Program-made: the position numbers and the translations under genes
Shown: one piece after another, positions 140 to 32,127 of the stretch
How positions within the stretch are numbered: position 1 is the stretch's first letter
Layout of the letters: every line of letters begins with the position of its first letter
Origin: Nitrospiraceae bacterium
GTDB taxonomy: Bacteria > Nitrospirota > Nitrospiria > Nitrospirales > UBA2166
Length of the DNA: 36,248 nucleotides
Reading direction: 5' to 3'
Assembly: GCA_002726235.1 (NCBI GenBank)
Contig: PBSN01000020.1
Coordinates: 1-36,248, forward strand
Notes under the pieces: model-generated
Databases searched by the model: none
Told to the model about the DNA's origin: nothing
The model's input: the letters and a program-made list of their open reading frames with translations, nothing else

Positions 140-2395
140 ATGTCCTCACACCCAGCTGCACTGATCTTCATTTCGCACTATCCACAGCGGCTTTTCACCT
201 ATGTCATTCCTAACACGTTGCGACAGAAGATTCGTGCGGGAAATATGGTGAGGGTTTCGTTTGGGTCCAATGTGCACGTTGGGCTAATTGCCGAGATCAT
301 TGAAACGACCGAAACTGCTCATCTCAAGGAAATCGAAGCCATTGTCGACACATCGTTTGCGCTCTCCCCATCGATGTTGTCACTTGCCCGCTGGATGGCA
401 TCATATTACCTCTCTCCTGTGGGAGAATGCCTTCAACTTATGCTCCCACCCATGTTCAGGCATGGAATTAAAGAGCGTTTCATCATCACGCCATTGGGAC
501 GAATGATGGCGGAGGGATCAGGAGCAGGTCGAGTGATTCAACACGCAATTCTCATCAGGCTGCAATCTGCAAAGCACGGGCTCTCAAGTCAGTATCTACG
601 TCAACAACTGGGACGTCGTAGCATTGCCTCAACGCTGAGAACACTGAAGAAAAATGGACACATCGAGAGCTATGTGGACCTGCCTTCTAGGACTCAATAC
701 GCTAAACGTTCTAATGGGTCTCGAATAAAACCCAACCCAGCCTATGCTGTAGATGAGACAAGACACGGCTTGCTACAGGATTCGTCTTTGTCTAGCCCTC
801 TTGCTTCGTCCATTCGGAAAGGCAGGAGCCAAATCTTTATCATGCAGGCGCCTCTGGAATACCGCGTCGGTGCATATTTGAAGGCTATACAGGAAACTAT
901 AACGAAACGGCGGAGCTGTATTGTGATCTTCCCTCACACGAGTCAAGCCCGTGAGTTTTCTAGGGCAGTACGGCCATATCTTGGTGACCATATATCCGAT
1001 TGGTTTGGAACACGGACGCTTTTTAAGAGGACATCAGAGTGGTATCGACTCCAATCCGGTGATGCAGACATCGTGATTGGAACACGGTCGAGTGCGTTAA
1101 ATCCCATGATAAAATTGGGTCTCATTATTGTGGATGAAGAGCATGACTTTCGACACAAATTCAATTATGAACCACGGTTTCATACGCGTGAAATTGCGCT
1201 GGCACGAGCGAGCAGAGAGATGGTCACAGTCATCCTTGGATCATCGCATCCTTCGGTTGAAGCCATTCATCTGACTCAATCAAAAAAGGCCATGTTGTTA
1301 TTCAAACATTCTGCGACAGATCTCGATCGCGTTTCATCTCTCACACCAAACGGGGTAGTCCAGTGCATTGATATGAGAACAGAATCAAGAGCAGGGCGAC
1401 TTTTTTCAGAACCCCTTCTTCACGCCATGCGTGATCGGTTAACGAATCGAAAGCCTGTGATCTTATACCAGCCAAGACGAGGGTTTTCGCGATCTCTCTG
1501 GTGCCGCGACTGTGGAGCAACTATCCGATGCACCAGTTGTAGTGTGGCGCTGACATACTACAAACAAGAACACAAGATCTTGTGTCATATTTGCGGAGAA
1601 TCTCGTGATGTCCCCCACATTTGCTCACGCTGTGCGGGAACTCATCTTCTAGCTATGGGGTTCGGCACTGAAGGTGTGGAAGCAGAGGTTCGAACCCTCT
1701 TTCCTGATGCGCGCATTGTGCGAATGGACAGAGACCTTGTTCGATCAGAGTCTGCAGCGTTATCGTTCATGAAGAGTCTTGATTTTAAAGAACTCGACAT
1801 TCTCATTGGAACGTCAATGCTTCTAGATATCGTGCCGATGCCTAAGGTGTCGTTAGTCGGGGTCATTTCTGCCGACACAATGTTACATATGCCGGACTTC
1901 AGAGCTGCAGAACATGCCTTTCATCAACTTATGGCACTCAAGTCGTTTTTGGCTTGTGGTGAGATGTTGATCCAGGCGTTTCAGCCGGAGCACCCTATGT
2001 TGCAGTCTGTGGCCCGTCAAGATCTCCAGCAATTCTATACGGACGAACTGGCCATGCGGCAGGAACTCTCGTTTCCTCCATTCACAAGGCTCGTTTGTTT
2101 ACGCGTGGCTGGTGATGCTGAAGCTCAGGTCCGCCAGATCTCCGCTCGATGGGCCAATCACCTTCGACAGAGCCATGCAGCAGGAATCCAGGAGGTCTTG
2201 GGTCCTGTCCCTGCCCCCTATTCAAAAATCCGCGGCCGTTATCGAGATCATATTCTGGTCAAGGAGCCTCACTCCGGACTCGCGAGCGAACTAGCTCACG
2301 GTGCGGTGGAAGCATCCCTGAGACACGCTAAAACGTTTTTAGGCACCTCAGGCCTCACATTCGAGGTGGATGTGGATCCGCATACATTTTTATAG
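140..2395 (+). CDS. priA: PriA-like primosomal protein N', helicase motifs degenerate
   Basis: Homologue of the replication-restart protein PriA, which binds stalled forks and recruits the primosome. The 751-residue frame has the usual PriA length and order: N-terminal 3'-DNA-binding domain (about 1-105), winged-helix region (about 130-190), helicase lobe 1 (about 225-390), a zinc-binding insert with all four CxxC pairs (C455/C458, C464/C467, C482/C485, C495/C498), lobe 2 and the C-terminal domain. DEEH (332-335) is kept. Motif I, GxTGSGKT in the family, reads IMQAPLEYRV near 234-243. The motif V region with KGHDF reads GTSMLLDIVPMP near 557-568. The motif VI GRAGR reads LKSFLACG near 600-607. 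The protein is therefore probably fork-binding but not an ATPase. The ATG at 140 is the first start after an in-frame TGA at 122-124, with no clear ribosome site. Mycobacterial PriA is a known family member lacking helicase motifs. Confidence 0.9.
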   Translation: MSSHPAALIFISHYPQRLFTYVIPNTLRQKIRAGNMVRVSFGSNVHVGLIAEIIETTETAHLKEIEAIVDTSFALSPSMLSLARWMASYYLSPVGECLQLMLPPMFRHGIKERFIITPLGRMMAEGSGAGRVIQHAILIRLQSAKHGLSSQYLRQQLGRRSIASTLRTLKKNGHIESYVDLPSRTQYAKRSNGSRIKPNPAYAVDETRHGLLQDSSLSSPLASSIRKGRSQIFIMQAPLEYRVGAYLKAIQETITKRRSCIVIFPHTSQAREFSRAVRPYLGDHISDWFGTRTLFKRTSEWYRLQSGDADIVIGTRSSALNPMIKLGLIIVDEEHDFRHKFNYEPRFHTREIALARASREMVTVILGSSHPSVEAIHLTQSKKAMLLFKHSATDLDRVSSLTPNGVVQCIDMRTESRAGRLFSEPLLHAMRDRLTNRKPVILYQPRRGFSRSLWCRDCGATIRCTSCSVALTYYKQEHKILCHICGESRDVPHICSRCAGTHLLAMGFGTEGVEAEVRTLFPDARIVRMDRDLVRSESAALSFMKSLDFKELDILIGTSMLLDIVPMPKVSLVGVISADTMLHMPDFRAAEHAFHQLMALKSFLACGEMLIQAFQPEHPMLQSVARQDLQQFYTDELAMRQELSFPPFTRLVCLRVAGDAEAQVRQISARWANHLRQSHAAGIQEVLGPVPAPYSKIRGRYRDHILVKEPHSGLASELAHGAVEASLRHAKTFLGTSGLTFEVDVDPHTFL

Positions 2396-2505: not shown

Positions 2506-2793
2506 ATGGCAGTAAAGGAGCAGGTCAAAACTACGTTTAAACCGCTACGGGATCGCATTTTTGTAGAATATCTCGAGGACGATGCGGAAAAATCGGCTGG
2601 AGGTATCTATATTCCTGAGACGGCCAAAGAAAAATCTCAGAAAGGAACCGTGCGGGCTATTGGGCCAGATGTGACGTTGGTAAAGGTCGGCGACAGCGTT
2701 TTGTGCGAGCGGTATGGTGGGAACAAAGTCAAGCTCGATGATGTGGAATATGTCGTCATGAAGGAAGAAGAAGTCCTAGGGCTGTTTGACTAA
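2506..2793 (+). CDS. groES: Co-chaperonin GroES
   Basis: Ten-kilodalton co-chaperonin that caps the GroEL ring during ATP-driven folding in the cytoplasm. The 95 residues match the family length. The N-terminal [11 protein letters not shown] strand, the mobile loop near 25-40 ([16 protein letters not shown]) and the C-terminal [12 protein letters not shown] segment are all present. A strong GAGGAGG ribosome site lies just upstream of the ATG. The gene is 41 bases ahead of groEL, the standard groESL operon arrangement. Confidence 0.97.
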
Positions 2794-2834
2794 GCCCACT
2801 AATAACCTGCAAACAAGGAAGAGAGGAGACAATA

Positions 2835-4481
2835 ATGGCAGCAAAGCAGATGGAATACTCGGGAGATGCCCGGCAACTAATTTTGAAGGGCGTGAGCAAG
2901 CTCTCCAAGGCTGTGAAAGCCACATTGGGTCCAAAAGGGCGGAACGCTATGCTCAGCAAGAAATGGGGTGCTCCCACAATCACCAAAGATGGGGTCACTG
3001 TAGCCAAGGAAATTGAGTTGGAGGATCCCTATGAAAACATGGGGGCTCAGTTGGTCCGCGAAGTCGCAAGCAAAACCAGTGATGTCGCTGGCGACGGCAC
3101 CACCACAGCCACTGTTCTGGCCGAATCCATCTTTCGCGAAGGCGTCAAGAATGTTGCTGCTGGCGCGAATGCTATGGATATCAAGCGTGGCATTGATGCG
3201 GCCGTGGAAGCTGTGGTTGAGCAGTTGCACTCTCAGAGCAAATCCTGCAACGACAAGAAAGAAATCGCCCAGATCGGCATTATTTCGGCTAACAACGACG
3301 TGGCCGTTGGAGATCTGATCGCTGAGGCAATGGAAAAAGTTGGTAAGGATGGCGTGATCACCGTTGAAGAAGCCAAGAGTTTAACTACCACTCTCGATGT
3401 GGTCGAAGGCATGCAGTTTGATCGTGGCTACACTTCACCATATTTCGTCACCAACGCAGAGCGGATGGAGTGTGTCATTGAGGATGCCTATATTTTGATT
3501 CATGAGAAGAAGATTAGTAACATGAAGGATCTCCTCGGACTCCTCGAGCAAGTCGCCAAGATGGGACGGCCGTTGTTGATTATTGCGGAAGAGGTCGAAG
3601 GCGAAGCCCTGGCCACCCTGGTAGTGAATAAACTACGTGGCACCTTGAATATCTGCGCCGTGAAAGCACCTGGCTTTGGAGATCGACGTAAAGCCATGCT
3701 GGAGGATATTGCTACCCTCACCGGAGGACAGATGATCTCTGAGGAACTTGGCATCAAGCTCGAAAGTGTCCAACTGAAAGATCTTGGCAGAGCCAAGCGG
3801 ATCACCGTGGACAAGGACAACACTACGATCGTGGAAGGCGCTGGCGAACAGTCCCTGATTCAAGCACGCGTCAAGCAGATCAAAGCGCAAATCGAAGAGA
3901 CGACCTCGGATTATGATCGCGAGAAACTCCAAGAGAGGTTGGCAAAAATCGTCGGTGGGGTTGCGGTAATTCGCATTGGTGCCGCCACTGAGCCGGAGAT
4001 GAAAGAGCGGAAGGCGCGGGTGGAAGATGCTCTTCATGCTACCAAAGCGGCTGTGGAAGAAGGTATCGTTCCTGGAGGAGGCGTAGCCTTAGTTCGAGCC
4101 ATTTCTGCCATGGATAAATTGAAGCTTTCTGATGATCAGCAGATAGGTGCCTCGATCATCAAGCGAGCACTTGAAGAGCCACTGAGGCAGATTGCGATAA
4201 ACGCTGGACACGAAGGTTCGGTGGTCGTCGCCAAAGTTAAAGAAGAGAAGGGTAACGTTGGATTTGATGCTGCGAAAGAACAATATGTTGACATGATCAA
4301 GTCCGGCATTATTGATCCGACCAAAGTCGTTAGAAGTGCGATTCAAAATGCGGCGAGTGTGGCTGGCCTGATGCTCACTACCGAAGTGTTAGTCACTGAG
4401 GTGCCGGAAAAAGAGAAACCCATGCCGATGCCTCCCGGAGGCGGCGGCGGCGGAATGGGTGGAATGGAAGGGATGTACTAA
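2835..4481 (+). CDS. groEL: Chaperonin GroEL
   Basis: Sixty-kilodalton chaperonin that forms the double-ring folding chamber. The 548-residue length is typical. Landmarks include [13 protein letters not shown] (about 28-40), the ATP-site GDGTTTAT (about 86-93), the PGGG segment near 415 and the glycine/methionine-rich tail ending GGMEGMY. A GGAGAC ribosome site precedes the ATG. It follows groES in the same operon. Nothing is truncated, and one copy is seen in this window. Confidence 0.98.
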
Positions 4482-5728: not shown

Positions 5729-6391
5729 ATGAAATTTGTCTGTTTGACATGTGAAGGATATATGAACTTTGAAAATGTTGATGCTGTGACTGACAATTCG
5801 TTGGGTATCACGTTCGGATGCCCAACTTGCGAGACTAGGTTTTCCATGGTGACCAATGCTGGTGAAACCTCTCTCATCAGTTCGCTTGGGGTCAAACTTG
5901 GTGGACGAACCGCACCTGCCGCGCCTTTCGAGACGACCAGGGAGACTCTCCAAGGTCATGATGAAAAGACGGTAACTGATGATGACTCTGTCTCAGGCGG
6001 GGCATGTCCATTTTCGGACATGCTTGCGGCATCCGGCATAACTACAGGTTCTTCCGCATCGGCTTCATCACTTCCATGGAGTGCAGAGGCCACTGAACGG
6101 ATCGAACGCATTCCGTCGATGATTCGTCCAATGGTCAAACGCGACATTGAAGAGTATGCAATGAAAAATGGGTTTTCTTCCGTCACGATCCAAGTGATGG
6201 ACGATGCCAAAACCAATGAAGCAGGCATTACGTGGTCCGCTGAAGCGGAAAAACGACTCAGTCGTCTTCCAGAGTTTGTTCGCCCTATGGCAAAACGTGA
6301 AATCGAGCGCATGGCGAAAGACAAAGGGGCACTGGAGGTGACCGTCACCATCATGGATGAAGCCAAGACTAAGTTCATGAGCTTCATGTAG
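5729..6391 (+). CDS. Zinc-ribbon protein with tandem PCP_red domains
   Basis: The 220-residue protein has three parts. First comes a zinc-ribbon-like N-terminus with CxxC pairs C5/C8 and C31/C34. A low-complexity linker (about 60-115) holds the segment ACPFSDML. Two successive copies of the PCP_red domain follow, about 117-160 and 169-212, each starting WSAEA and containing a (I/V)RPM(V/A)KR(D/E)IE core. PCP_red is the small domain at the C-terminus of BchB, the dark-operative protochlorophyllide reductase subunit. No BchB, BchN or BchL is in this window, so a chlorophyll role is not implied. A GGAGGGG ribosome site fixes the ATG. It follows the Mrp ATPase by 27 bases, which suggests a redox or metallocluster role (inference). 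Confidence 0.82.
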   Translation: MKFVCLTCEGYMNFENVDAVTDNSLGITFGCPTCETRFSMVTNAGETSLISSLGVKLGGRTAPAAPFETTRETLQGHDEKTVTDDDSVSGGACPFSDMLAASGITTGSSASASSLPWSAEATERIERIPSMIRPMVKRDIEEYAMKNGFSSVTIQVMDDAKTNEAGITWSAEAEKRLSRLPEFVRPMAKREIERMAKDKGALEVTVTIMDEAKTKFMSFM

Positions 6392-6394
6392 CGG

Positions 6395-6510
6395 ATTATT
6401 CAAAAAGCCCCCTGCTGGCCTTCTTTCCTGTTGGCGTGTACGCATATTTCGTGTACGCTCAACCCGGTAGCGATCCTGTAACCTTGACTGACGGTATTTT
6501 TGAACAGTCC
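6395..6510. repeat. Intergenic repeat element, copy 1 (TTCAAAAA...TTTTTGAA)
   Basis: About 115 bases bounded by ATTCAAAAAG (about 6398-6407) and GTATTTTTGAACAG (about 6494-6507). The right third (CGATCCTGTAACCTTGACTG onward) aligns with copy 2 at about 6873-6916. An internal direct repeat GTGTACGC occurs twice, split by ATATTTC. It sits between the PCP-domain gene and the small cytochrome gene. It resembles a dispersed REP/BOX-type element, but family membership is unchecked. Confidence 0.5.
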
Positions 6511-6544
6511 ATGAAATACTGTACCCAAAGCATGGTGGAGTTTT

Positions 6545-6790
6545 ATGGCATTGAAGGTTAGGAGGGTCGATCTTCTGTTTGTGCTTGGCATGGGCGCGGT
6601 TGTGGTAGGAATCGCGTTACTTCCCAGTCCCATTGATAGCAATCCGATGATTCCTGCCAACAACACTCATCAATCCGTGAAAAATGAGAAGGAGTGTCTC
6701 CTATGCCACTCGTCAGAGGGCATATACCCGCTTCCGGATCGTCATCTCACCAAGCGACAAGATTGTTTCAACTGTCATGGGAAGCAATAA
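6545..6790 (+). CDS. Small membrane-anchored diheme c-type cytochrome
   Basis: The 81-residue protein has one N-terminal hydrophobic segment (about 8-26) acting as signal anchor. It then has two CxxCH haem c motifs, CLLCH (about 54-58) and CFNCH (about 74-78), ending three residues later. The haem domain should face the periplasm and shuttle electrons. The partner is unknown because no oxidase or reductase subunit adjoins. A GGTGGAG ribosome site precedes the ATG. It is much smaller than typical multihaem cytochromes and could be a single-module NrfH/c7-like remnant, but both haem motifs and the leader are complete. It is flanked on both sides by copies of one intergenic repeat. Confidence 0.75.
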   Translation: MALKVRRVDLLFVLGMGAVVVGIALLPSPIDSNPMIPANNTHQSVKNEKECLLCHSSEGIYPLPDRHLTKRQDCFNCHGKQ

Positions 6791-6793
6791 TGT

Positions 6794-6916
6794 GGGTGTT
6801 GAAAAAGTCCGCTAGCGACGTTTTTCTGGACTATCGTTTCGCTCGCATGTTCCGTGGGCGCTCTGCGTGTCAACGATCCCTGCAATCTTGCTGGACAGCG
6901 TTTTTGAACTAGCCCT
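6794..6916. repeat. Intergenic repeat element, copy 2
   Basis: About 120 bases bounded by GTTGAAAAAGTCC (6798-6810) and GCGTTTTTGAACTAGCCC (about 6898-6915). The right part, from CGATCCCTGCAATCTTGCTG, aligns with copy 1 from CGATCCTGTAACCTTGACTG, and the terminal GTTTTTGAAC is shared. It lies between the convergent cytochrome and hydrolase genes, so it may also act in transcription termination. Confidence 0.5.
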
Positions 6917-6938
6917 ATTACTTTCCTAAAGCCAGAGG

Positions 6939-7880
6939 TCAGCGGGTAGCTGAGAGAAGAAATTCGAGAATAGCCGAATTGGTTGCTTCGGGTTTCTCCC
7001 ACATTGTAAGGTGGCCAGCATTCTCGATGGCTAGGAACATGGAATGGGGGATCTGCTGATGCAGTTCTTCTCCGACCGGAAGCGGAAATAGTGGGTCGCG
7101 GGTTCCCCACATGATCAGCGTAGGCGTCGTAATTTCGGAGATGCGAGGAGCGTAATGATTCTCCCACCGCTGGATGTTATTGCGAGTTGAGAACAGTACG
7201 TGCGCAGACCCGGCAAATGTTCGAAATCTGTACGCTCGGTCGGTGACATCATCTGTAATGAGGCTCTTGTCGACGACCAAATTCTTGAGAGTTGAACGTA
7301 AGAAGCTTTTGCCAGAAAGGGAAAACCCGATGCGAAGGAGAAATGAGGGCTTAAAGCGGAGGAAGATGCGATAGGCCATGAGTGCGGCCTTTTCACTTGC
7401 TCCCTGTGGAAACCCTCCGATCAGAATGATCTTGTCAGTCAGATGTGGATATTTTAGTGTCATACCCATCGCAACTCCTGCCCCTAAGGAATTGCCGATC
7501 AACGTTGCCTGTGCAATATCAAGCTCCGACATGAACCCTTTCACCGAATCGATAAACAGATCTGGTGTGTATGCGATATCCGGCCGATCAGAGTAGCCGT
7601 AACCAAGAAGATCAAGCGTGTACACAGAAAAATGCTGAGCGAGAGCCTCTTGTTGATATTCCCACATCCATCCTTGCGCACCGAATCCGTGCAACAGAAT
7701 AATGGGTGGCCCTTCACCGATCACGGTGTATATCAATTGGTGGCCGTCAACTATGACCGCCTTGGGCTGAACTCGGTTGTAGGTGTGCGTAAGGTTAGGT
7801 TTGAATGGCTTTGGGGCACATCCCATCATCGCCACCACGAGCACTACAGCTGCGCTCATCCTTATTGCAAGCGTGTTCAT
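6939..7880 (-). CDS. Alpha/beta hydrolase, predicted lipoprotein
   Basis: The 313-residue alpha/beta hydrolase-fold protein carries a lipoprotein signal: a hydrophobic segment (about 8-18) and lipobox AMMGC with C21 as lipidation site. Oxyanion motif HGFG (64-67), nucleophile elbow GNSLG with S131, acid D262 in GTRD and H290 in NAGH form a full catalytic triad. The family includes esterases, lipases and C-C hydrolases, and the substrate cannot be assigned. The product is probably attached to the envelope facing the periplasm. It is downstream of the PGPGW membrane protein by 29 bases and likely shares its transcript. No strong ribosome site is visible at the ATG. Confidence 0.87.
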   Translation of the reverse strand: MNTLAIRMSAAVVLVVAMMGCAPKPFKPNLTHTYNRVQPKAVIVDGHQLIYTVIGEGPPIILLHGFGAQGWMWEYQQEALAQHFSVYTLDLLGYGYSDRPDIAYTPDLFIDSVKGFMSELDIAQATLIGNSLGAGVAMGMTLKYPHLTDKIILIGGFPQGASEKAALMAYRIFLRFKPSFLLRIGFSLSGKSFLRSTLKNLVVDKSLITDDVTDRAYRFRTFAGSAHVLFSTRNNIQRWENHYAPRISEITTPTLIMWGTRDPLFPLPVGEELHQQIPHSMFLAIENAGHLTMWEKPEATNSAILEFLLSATR

Positions 7881-30479: not shown

Positions 30480-30618
30480 CACAGGGCATGACGAATGCTG
30501 TTGTGGCCAGGCTGTCGAGGGATGATTGTCGTTTAGCCGAATGTTAAAATAGCTCTCCGTTTGGGTGCATCGTGCGTTTTTTAACATCCTGCCCAGACAA
30601 TTCCCGCATAGGAAGCTA

Positions 30619-32127
30619 ATGACCTTACATGAAACAATTCTCAATCTGATTTGTGCTGTGGAGGCCGAATTGTCGCGCCAAGATGCCCCGAATGGCGCTG
30701 GAGAGATTCTCATCACACATCGCCGTCTAGTTGCCTCATCCAACACGATGTGGGTCTATTCCTGCGGTTGGGATCATACAATCCCGATGACCGAGGAGGT
30801 GCCTGTAAAGGTCAGAGTGAAAGGATCTCAGGCGCTAACCGAGGGCCGAGTTGTCGGATTTGATAATTGTACGCTCTGGCTTGGCGTTCGAAAAAACTTG
30901 GGAGCTGTAGTGCGGCCAGCGTATGTTCAGCCAGACGTGAGCAGCATCTTCCAGTCTCTGACCAGACGGCTTCACGACATAGAGCGCAACCTTATGTCAA
31001 TGGTTAAATACCCATTTGGTCAACTGTTTTCCGATGACTTGAGTCTCGTTAACGACGAGACTGATTCGAGTGTGCAGATTATCGATCTGCCACATTCAGA
31101 TGCTCGCCGAGAGCGAGTGACGGAGATTGTATTGGAGGGATTGCGTGAAGGGAAACGGATCCTATTGACATCGGCGCACAATCGTAATCTTGATGAAAAC
31201 CTCATTGCTATCGTTCGCGTAATGAGGATGGAAGGCCTCTCATATTCTACGCTTGTCACTCGTTATCCCGCGCTTGTCCTTGAGGGAAAGGGAACAACTG
31301 ATCTTCGCGAACTCGCCTTTGAACAACAACTTCGAGCTAATGTCGGCAGAGTCCAAGCTGAGCAAAATATCCTTCGATCCGCCTTCCATCGGTATCAGAA
31401 GCTGGCTCCAATCGTAGCGTTAGCGCAAGAGAAAATACGAGATTTGGAAGAAGTTGAGGCGCTCGAAGATCGCTTGTTGCGTGCAATTGATAAGCTTGAA
31501 TGCAAAGATACTGATCTTAGGATTAACGTTGAAACTTATGCCGATACTCCACTGTGGCAACGCCTTTCTATGCAGGTCGGCGGCAAAAACCCGCCCACCA
31601 TGCATAAGATGCGCTCGTGGTGTGCTGAGCAACTTGAAGAGTTACGGCAGGAATTGCTTGCGCTGTATCCACGCCTCTCAAAGGCGCGGCAGGAGGCGTA
31701 CCTCGCTCCCGAAATTTGGGAGGAGTACGAGCGATCCAAGGAGACAGTCGAGGCAAGGGGGGGGATTGAGAACGTTCGTTCTCTTATTGCTGTAGATCAA
31801 GGAGAGTTGGGCCACGTCTTTGAGGGGCGGGGCCTCGTCGCAGCAACGGCAGGGTGCGTCGCGTCTCATGATCTGTTCAATGGCCTGTCATTTGATACCG
31901 TCATTGTTGATGGCATTGATGCTGTTCCGCTACCCCTGCTTATTCCAGCAACTTGTCTAGCTCGGAAGAAAATTGTGTTGGTAGGAGCCCAATCTGACTC
32001 GCAGGTAGCGACAGTGATGGATGGTAGCGCTGAGCGCTTGCGAGTACGCATCGCATGCCTGCGTACTTCCATTCTTGAAACCTGTCGCGCACAGGCCGTA
32101 GCCGCATCACGGGCCTCACATGCCTAA
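30619..32127 (+). CDS. SF1 (Upf1/Dna2-like) helicase-domain stub, motifs degenerate
   Basis: The 502-residue protein, start fixed by AGGAAG before ATG 30619, follows the layout of an SF1B Upf1-like helicase first RecA domain. It has a beta-rich N-terminal domain (about 30-100), the motif I region (about 153-164), motif Ia GKRILLTSAHNRNLDENL (178-195), a long coiled-coil insert (about 230-390), motif II (428-435) and motif III (453-462). Key residues are gone. Where GPPGTGKT is expected it reads DLPHSDAR. The DEAx box reads VIVDGIDA. GDxxQLPP reads GAQSDSQV. The second RecA domain with motifs IV-VI is absent. Thus no ATPase or unwinding is expected. The TAA overlaps the ftsK start by eight bases, which suggests coupled translation. 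Homology is by pattern only. Confidence 0.65.
   Translation: MTLHETILNLICAVEAELSRQDAPNGAGEILITHRRLVASSNTMWVYSCGWDHTIPMTEEVPVKVRVKGSQALTEGRVVGFDNCTLWLGVRKNLGAVVRPAYVQPDVSSIFQSLTRRLHDIERNLMSMVKYPFGQLFSDDLSLVNDETDSSVQIIDLPHSDARRERVTEIVLEGLREGKRILLTSAHNRNLDENLIAIVRVMRMEGLSYSTLVTRYPALVLEGKGTTDLRELAFEQQLRANVGRVQAEQNILRSAFHRYQKLAPIVALAQEKIRDLEEVEALEDRLLRAIDKLECKDTDLRINVETYADTPLWQRLSMQVGGKNPPTMHKMRSWCAEQLEELRQELLALYPRLSKARQEAYLAPEIWEEYERSKETVEARGGIENVRSLIAVDQGELGHVFEGRGLVAATAGCVASHDLFNGLSFDTVIVDGIDAVPLPLLIPATCLARKKIVLVGAQSDSQVATVMDGSAERLRVRIACLRTSILETCRAQAVAASRASHA

Follow-up and report, generated by a model that had tools for sequence, protein, structure and literature searches.

A putative PriA pseudohelicase in a Nitrospirales genome, and the loss of the SSB tip in the same order

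The window studied here is the whole of a 36,248-nucleotide stretch of contig PBSN01000020.1 from a Nitrospiraceae bacterium, and the first gene that concerns us in it encodes a homologue of PriA (Table 1). The frame is open over its full length, as a sequence-only reading of this DNA had stated, and its assignment to PriA is borne out by three kinds of match. The family model TIGR00595 scores 402 bits over the whole protein, with a curated cut-off of 230, the Pfam domains PriA_3primeBD, Zn_ribbon_PriA and PriA_C all exceed their cut-offs, and PriA chains of the PDB match with E=8e-83. The features that define the family, namely the 3' binding domain, the eight-cysteine zinc region and the PriA C-terminal domain, are thus present. 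The Pfam DEAD model reaches only 21.8 bits, which is below its cut-off. Among the subfamily models, all of which score below their own cut-offs on this protein, PRK05580.1-3 comes first with 482 bits, and the PRK14873 models give at most 189 bits. Membership in the actinobacterial (PRK14873) subfamily was rejected on this ground, and the subfamily scores give no support to a transfer of the gene from actinobacteria. Downstream lie two genes that we take to be groES and groEL; this stretch aligns also in two close relatives of the window genome, UBA2166 (L037, Nitrospirales by lineage) and UWMA-0026 (L038). Just upstream of priA, positions 1-22 at the contig end consist of poly-C followed by a TC repeat, which resembles an assembly edge.

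Table 1. Features of the priA locus in the window, with coordinates in the window and residues of the predicted protein
Feature	Position	Strand	Remarks
priA, putative PriA pseudohelicase	140..2395	+	intact frame, 751 aa
W85 and Y89 (Klebsiella W82, Y86), SSB-tail pocket positions	392..406	+	kept in genus
Degenerate motif I (Walker A), QAPLEYRV	845..868	+	residues 236-243; shorter than the canonical loop by one residue
Motif II, DEEH, kept	1133..1144	+	residues 332-335
Motif III, altered, GSSHP (canonical GSATP)	1238..1252	+	
K383 (Klebsiella K370), SSB-tail pocket position	1286..1288	+	kept in genus; 0/32 in f2-f4
Cysteine-rich zinc region, with its full set of eight Cys	1502..1633	+	residues 455-498
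Degenerate motif V, GTSMLLDIVPMP; canonical GTQMIAKGHDFP	1808..1843	+	
Motif VI (GRAGR), lost	1934..1960	+	short deletion
groES and groEL (presumed names)	2506..4481	+	downstream of priA

The sequence-only reading had proposed that helicase motifs I, V and VI are lost and that DEEH and the eight zinc cysteines are kept, and our alignment with the Klebsiella and E. coli proteins agrees. Where active PriA has GVTGSGKT in motif I, the window protein has the loop given in Table 1; in motif V, KGHHF is replaced by DIVPM (LLDIVPMP in place of IAKGHDFP), and in motif VI, SGRAGRA by MALKSFLACG. None of the three signatures of an active helicase (GxTGSGKT in motif I, KGHDF in motif V and GRxGR in motif VI) is found. 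Two further changes add to the earlier list, PEIxLT to PHTSQA in motif Ia and SATP to SSHP in motif III. The zinc cysteines stand at residues 455, 458, 464, 467, 482, 485, 495 and 498. The P-loop is replaced in three other members of the genus as well, so that neither chance nor sequencing error accounts for its absence.

We read the motifs in 164 loci and tallied 120 rows, 113 from the phylum of the window and 7 outgroups; the remainder are duplicate contigs (L037, L038 and L166), further outgroup and active rows, one dead row (L169) and L070. Motifs I and VI are both missing in 80 of the 120 rows, which belong to 18 families and are called dead here: 37 rows of Nitrospirales (families f1-f4, f1 being the genus of the window, with one row, L020, partly masked), two of f9 in the same class, and 41 of 13 other families. 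The 32 phylum rows that have both motifs come from 20 families, and all seven outgroups have both as well. The one row left (L159, family f38) keeps motif I with a degraded motif VI and is a possible intermediate of the loss. Wherever a family is represented by two or more rows, their motif state is uniform. A separate reading of eight single-contig Nitrospirales genomes gave one PriA match at E<=1e-30 in each, and all eight are dead, with a long frame and 8/8 cysteines. Outside the phylum, L070 (Bacteroidales RGIG1112, match 6001-7278) also has a frame resembling PriA in which the P-loop is broken and motifs V and VI have degraded.

On a tree of 81 rows, from which the trait columns had been removed, the dead rows fall into two starred clades, A with f9 and Nitrospirales (19 rows, 96) and B with the 13 families (28 rows, 100), and at least two changes are forced. 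The replaced loops differ too, being mostly one residue shorter in Nitrospirales and mostly of full length and HAPSxxYE-like in clade B. That a single loss joins both clades, by descent or by gene transfer, is an unlikely alternative. It would fit the start of the P-loop, which has become xAP in many rows of both, and the tree backbone, whose support is weak in places; it is opposed by the two starred clades and the changes they force, by the unlike loop lengths, by an AU test against a single dead clade (p=0.031; 43 rows, simple model), and by the active PriA retained in the class-mates f5-f8, f10 and f11. There is thus moderate evidence that the ATPase motifs were lost at least twice within the phylum. 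The earlier reading expected an independent loss in a Nitrospirota-like genome; the phylum is indeed Nitrospirota, but the loss is, as judged from the sequences, ancestral to Nitrospirales and their sister family f9, with a separate, parallel loss in the second clade.

Among 90 columns that are invariant in at least 90% of the 39 active rows (L020 was left out because of its masked stretch), both dead clades retain all eight zinc cysteines and all six C-terminal domain columns, and the P-loop residues G241 and K242 stand at 0% and 2%. The zinc cysteines occur in 100% of rows in each group (39 active, 38 of clade A and 41 of clade B). The retention of DEEH, which the earlier reading had stressed, holds for all four members of the window's genus but is no general hallmark, as no other row among the 38 of clade A has the full motif. 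Outside f1, D332 and E333 are mostly lost. E334 is nonetheless present in 100% of rows of both dead clades, which suggests a structural role for it. The full DEEH of the genus could also be a remnant of nucleotide or metal binding, and this counts against the explanation that we prefer. A remodelled site, made of the QAP or HAP loop and DEEH and still binding or hydrolysing nucleotide, appears to us quite improbable. The motif in all four genus members, the A-P that recurs in the replaced loop of both dead clades and the invariance of E334 would suit it. Nearly all dead rows, however, lack the arginine fingers and the P-loop Gly, Lys and Thr; D332 and E333 are lost in most other members; and the single change K230R abolishes the ATPase of E. 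coli PriA, according to PMC4504706.

The window genome is 1.87 Mb in size and 90.65% complete. At this completeness it contains no second PriA above cut-off, the other matches being at E=1.9e-12 or worse and in other frames, and a search with an order-specific profile revealed no further copy either. For priA, dN/dS could be used in three of six genus pairs (0.165, 0.149 and 0.123); the remaining three, all of which include L012, are saturated. The zinc region has the lowest values (0.071-0.078) in two of the three usable pairs, the third giving no estimate. Because dN/dS is 0.12-0.17 and the single copy is intact, it is well supported that priA is retained under purifying selection and is not a decaying gene. 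The sequence-only reading had held the protein to be catalytically dead yet retained, and had named a second, motif-complete PriA and a dN/dS near 1 as findings that would speak against this. Neither was seen, and the protein, predicted to be dead from its motifs, has kept a PriA fold in its model.

We consider it extremely unlikely that PriA is leaving a streamlined lineage and that its motifs were lost by relaxed constraint. This view could appeal to the small genome, to the drift of pocket and motif residues in f2-f4, and to the few order members without PriA. PriA above cut-off was absent from 5 of 57 relatives, two of which show fragments at contig ends and three nothing. Two profiles revealed no PriA in the Nitrospirales genomes G007, G022 and G045, the last of which is 99% complete; PriA may be dispensable in these three, or merely absent from the assemblies, and this also counts against the explanation that we prefer. 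The selection figures largely refute decay. The intact frames in the genus, the zinc cysteines and C-terminal columns retained across clade A, and the long frames with 8/8 cysteines in all eight single-contig genomes speak against it too. G045, at 2.0 Mb, is smaller than most siblings of its genus.

The single-stranded DNA-binding protein SSB was also compared. The window genome has one SSB, which ends in VVELSGEES, without the acidic -PF tip. This tip is reported to be highly conserved, and E. coli dies when the last Phe is deleted, as described in PMC10164576. An SSB match was obtained in 113 of 117 Nitrospirales genomes, and in none of the 113 does the main SSB end in PF (two end in F); neither do any of 13 readable secondary copies, two weak secondary matches being unreadable. 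Outside the order, PF closes the main SSB of every genome with a match in two sets from the phylum, 16/16 in the first and 29/29 in the second, or 45/45 in all; the 29 genomes comprise 30/30 loci with PF, and one further genome of the second set lacks a match. Family f9 has a dead PriA yet keeps the SSB tip. The Nitrospirales tails are still acidic, and 93 of 113 carry an acidic-Tyr/Phe-acidic motif.

Two other clients of the tip were inspected. RecO was not found in 3/3 genomes searched of the window's genus (G000, G001 and G003) and was found in 27/27 others; its pocket shows order-specific changes at a few columns, to which we attach no meaning. The RecG pocket positions R467, R474 and R614, as given in PMC10164576, are Arg in 0, 1 and 0 of 20 Nitrospirales RecGs and in 4/8, 2/8 and 2/8 reference RecGs from outside Nitrospirales (E. 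coli excluded). The RecG pocket is uninformative as a sign of SSB-tip loss, since the references outside the order vary at these positions too.

On the PriA side, the SSB tail contacts in the Klebsiella protein are presumably W82, Y86, K370, R697 and Q701, letters that agree with the 4nl4 chain at 5/5 positions. The counts use the first three only, as the R697 and Q701 columns are poorly aligned, and L020 was left out of both pocket counts, though in the first of them not from the active group. W85, Y89 and K383 are kept in 15, 22 and 4 of 36 Nitrospirales rows. The corresponding W, Y and K are found in 40, 38 and 39 of 41 rows of the second dead clade, in 2/2 rows each of f9, and in 29, 34 and 28 of the 39 active rows. 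We also ranked, without regard to the pocket, 62 columns whose conservation spans the active rows, f9 and the second dead clade. By erosion in f2-f4, K383 (0/32), W85 and Y89 are all among the top eight, at ranks 1, 6 and 8.

These counts allow a tentative reading, to which we give a little less than an even chance: Nitrospirales would have dismantled SSB-tail docking, so that restart became both motorless and independent of the SSB tail, and other SSB clients would be recruited by an acidic tail of another kind that contains Tyr, or without SSB. The course of events that we infer as the simplest begins with loss of the ATPase in an ancestor shared by Nitrospirales and f9; the PF tip of SSB would have been lost next, in Nitrospirales, and the PriA pocket would then have eroded in f2-f4. 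Because the tip is lost and the pocket eroded in f2-f4, PriA has probably ceased to be recruited by way of the SSB tail as well. A less probable, though still plausible, account is that the pocket simply drifts as part of a dead helicase, independently of the SSB tip. Nitrospirales PriA is dead in any case, and f1 lacks the tip yet retains W85, Y89 and K383; the second dead clade and f9, however, retain both pocket and tip, and the pocket residues of f2-f4 rank high in erosion. Docking on the SSB tail is regarded as essential in bacteria, and an order that lacks the SSB tip would be a test of how far the SSB hub is needed.

Taken with the retained domains, the motif losses make it probable that the window gene encodes a PriA pseudohelicase, which would act as an ATP-independent fork platform for reloading of DnaB by DciA; the activities are proposed from sequence, from the model and by analogy, and this goes also for the part in fork recognition or primosome loading that the sequence-only reading had suggested. 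The AlphaFold model of the protein has a pLDDT of 84.8, and among PDB entries it comes closest to E. coli PriA bound to a fork (8fak_H; TM 0.74 by query and 0.85 by target). AlphaFold models no fork, and the closeness to 8fak may reflect a preference of the method. The protein would bind the fork through its 3'-end pocket, winged helix, HD1 surface (motif Ib, GTRSA), zinc region and C-terminal domain, and would close around the lagging-strand ssDNA as fork-bound E. coli PriA does. The pore and domain contacts of the latter are described in PMC10175261, and the pore in PMC13377028, a further basis for the analogy. Because such a PriA could neither hydrolyse ATP nor unwind the lagging arm, this arm would have to be cleared by another helicase or a nuclease, or be single-stranded already. 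PriA would then serve as the landing platform where DciA reloads the replicative helicase DnaB. DciA was found in 235 of the 245 phylum genomes, including that of the window, and a partnership of DciA and PriA is suggested in PMC9825169. As an explanation of the ATPase loss, DciA was rejected, being equally common beside active and dead PriA. Nor did a DnaC-like loader emerge: PF01695 matches best to a frame of 444 aa, a length that suggests DnaA, and nothing dedicated was found.

Helicase-dead PriA as such is already known, from Deinococcus and actinobacteria. Actinobacterial PriA proteins of the PRK14873 group lack helicase motifs, are helicase-dead and are used with DciA. The window protein is likewise dead by its motifs, and falls outside that subfamily by score. 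PriA of Deinococcus radiodurans has no ATPase and does not unwind, and it binds DNA and contacts DnaB, according to PMC4504706. Like the window protein it has no working Walker A, and the combination that marks a pseudohelicase of this type, loss of Walker A in an intact frame under selection, is found in the window as well. Its motifs are near misses (K to R in GKT), whereas the window PriA, which comes from a different phylum, has a shortened P-loop of other letters and neither motif V nor motif VI, with loss of the SSB tip in addition. The E. coli and Klebsiella proteins (8fak, 4nl4 and 4nl8) share domain order, zinc cysteines and overall fold with the window PriA, which differs from them in lacking motifs I, V and VI and in having an SSB tail without PF in its own genome. 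In the open-licence literature we found no paper that combines PriA or SSB with Nitrospira, a result that does not establish novelty. With two separate losses, and active relatives within the class, the phylum offers a natural experiment on the purpose of the PriA motor.

Elsewhere in the window, a 220-aa protein (5729-6391) with two PCP_red (proto-chlorophyllide reductase 57 kD) domains adjoins a gene for an Mrp/NUBPL-type ATPase, and a 520-aa frame without a Pfam match at E<=1e-5 lies upstream of ftsK (30565-32127).
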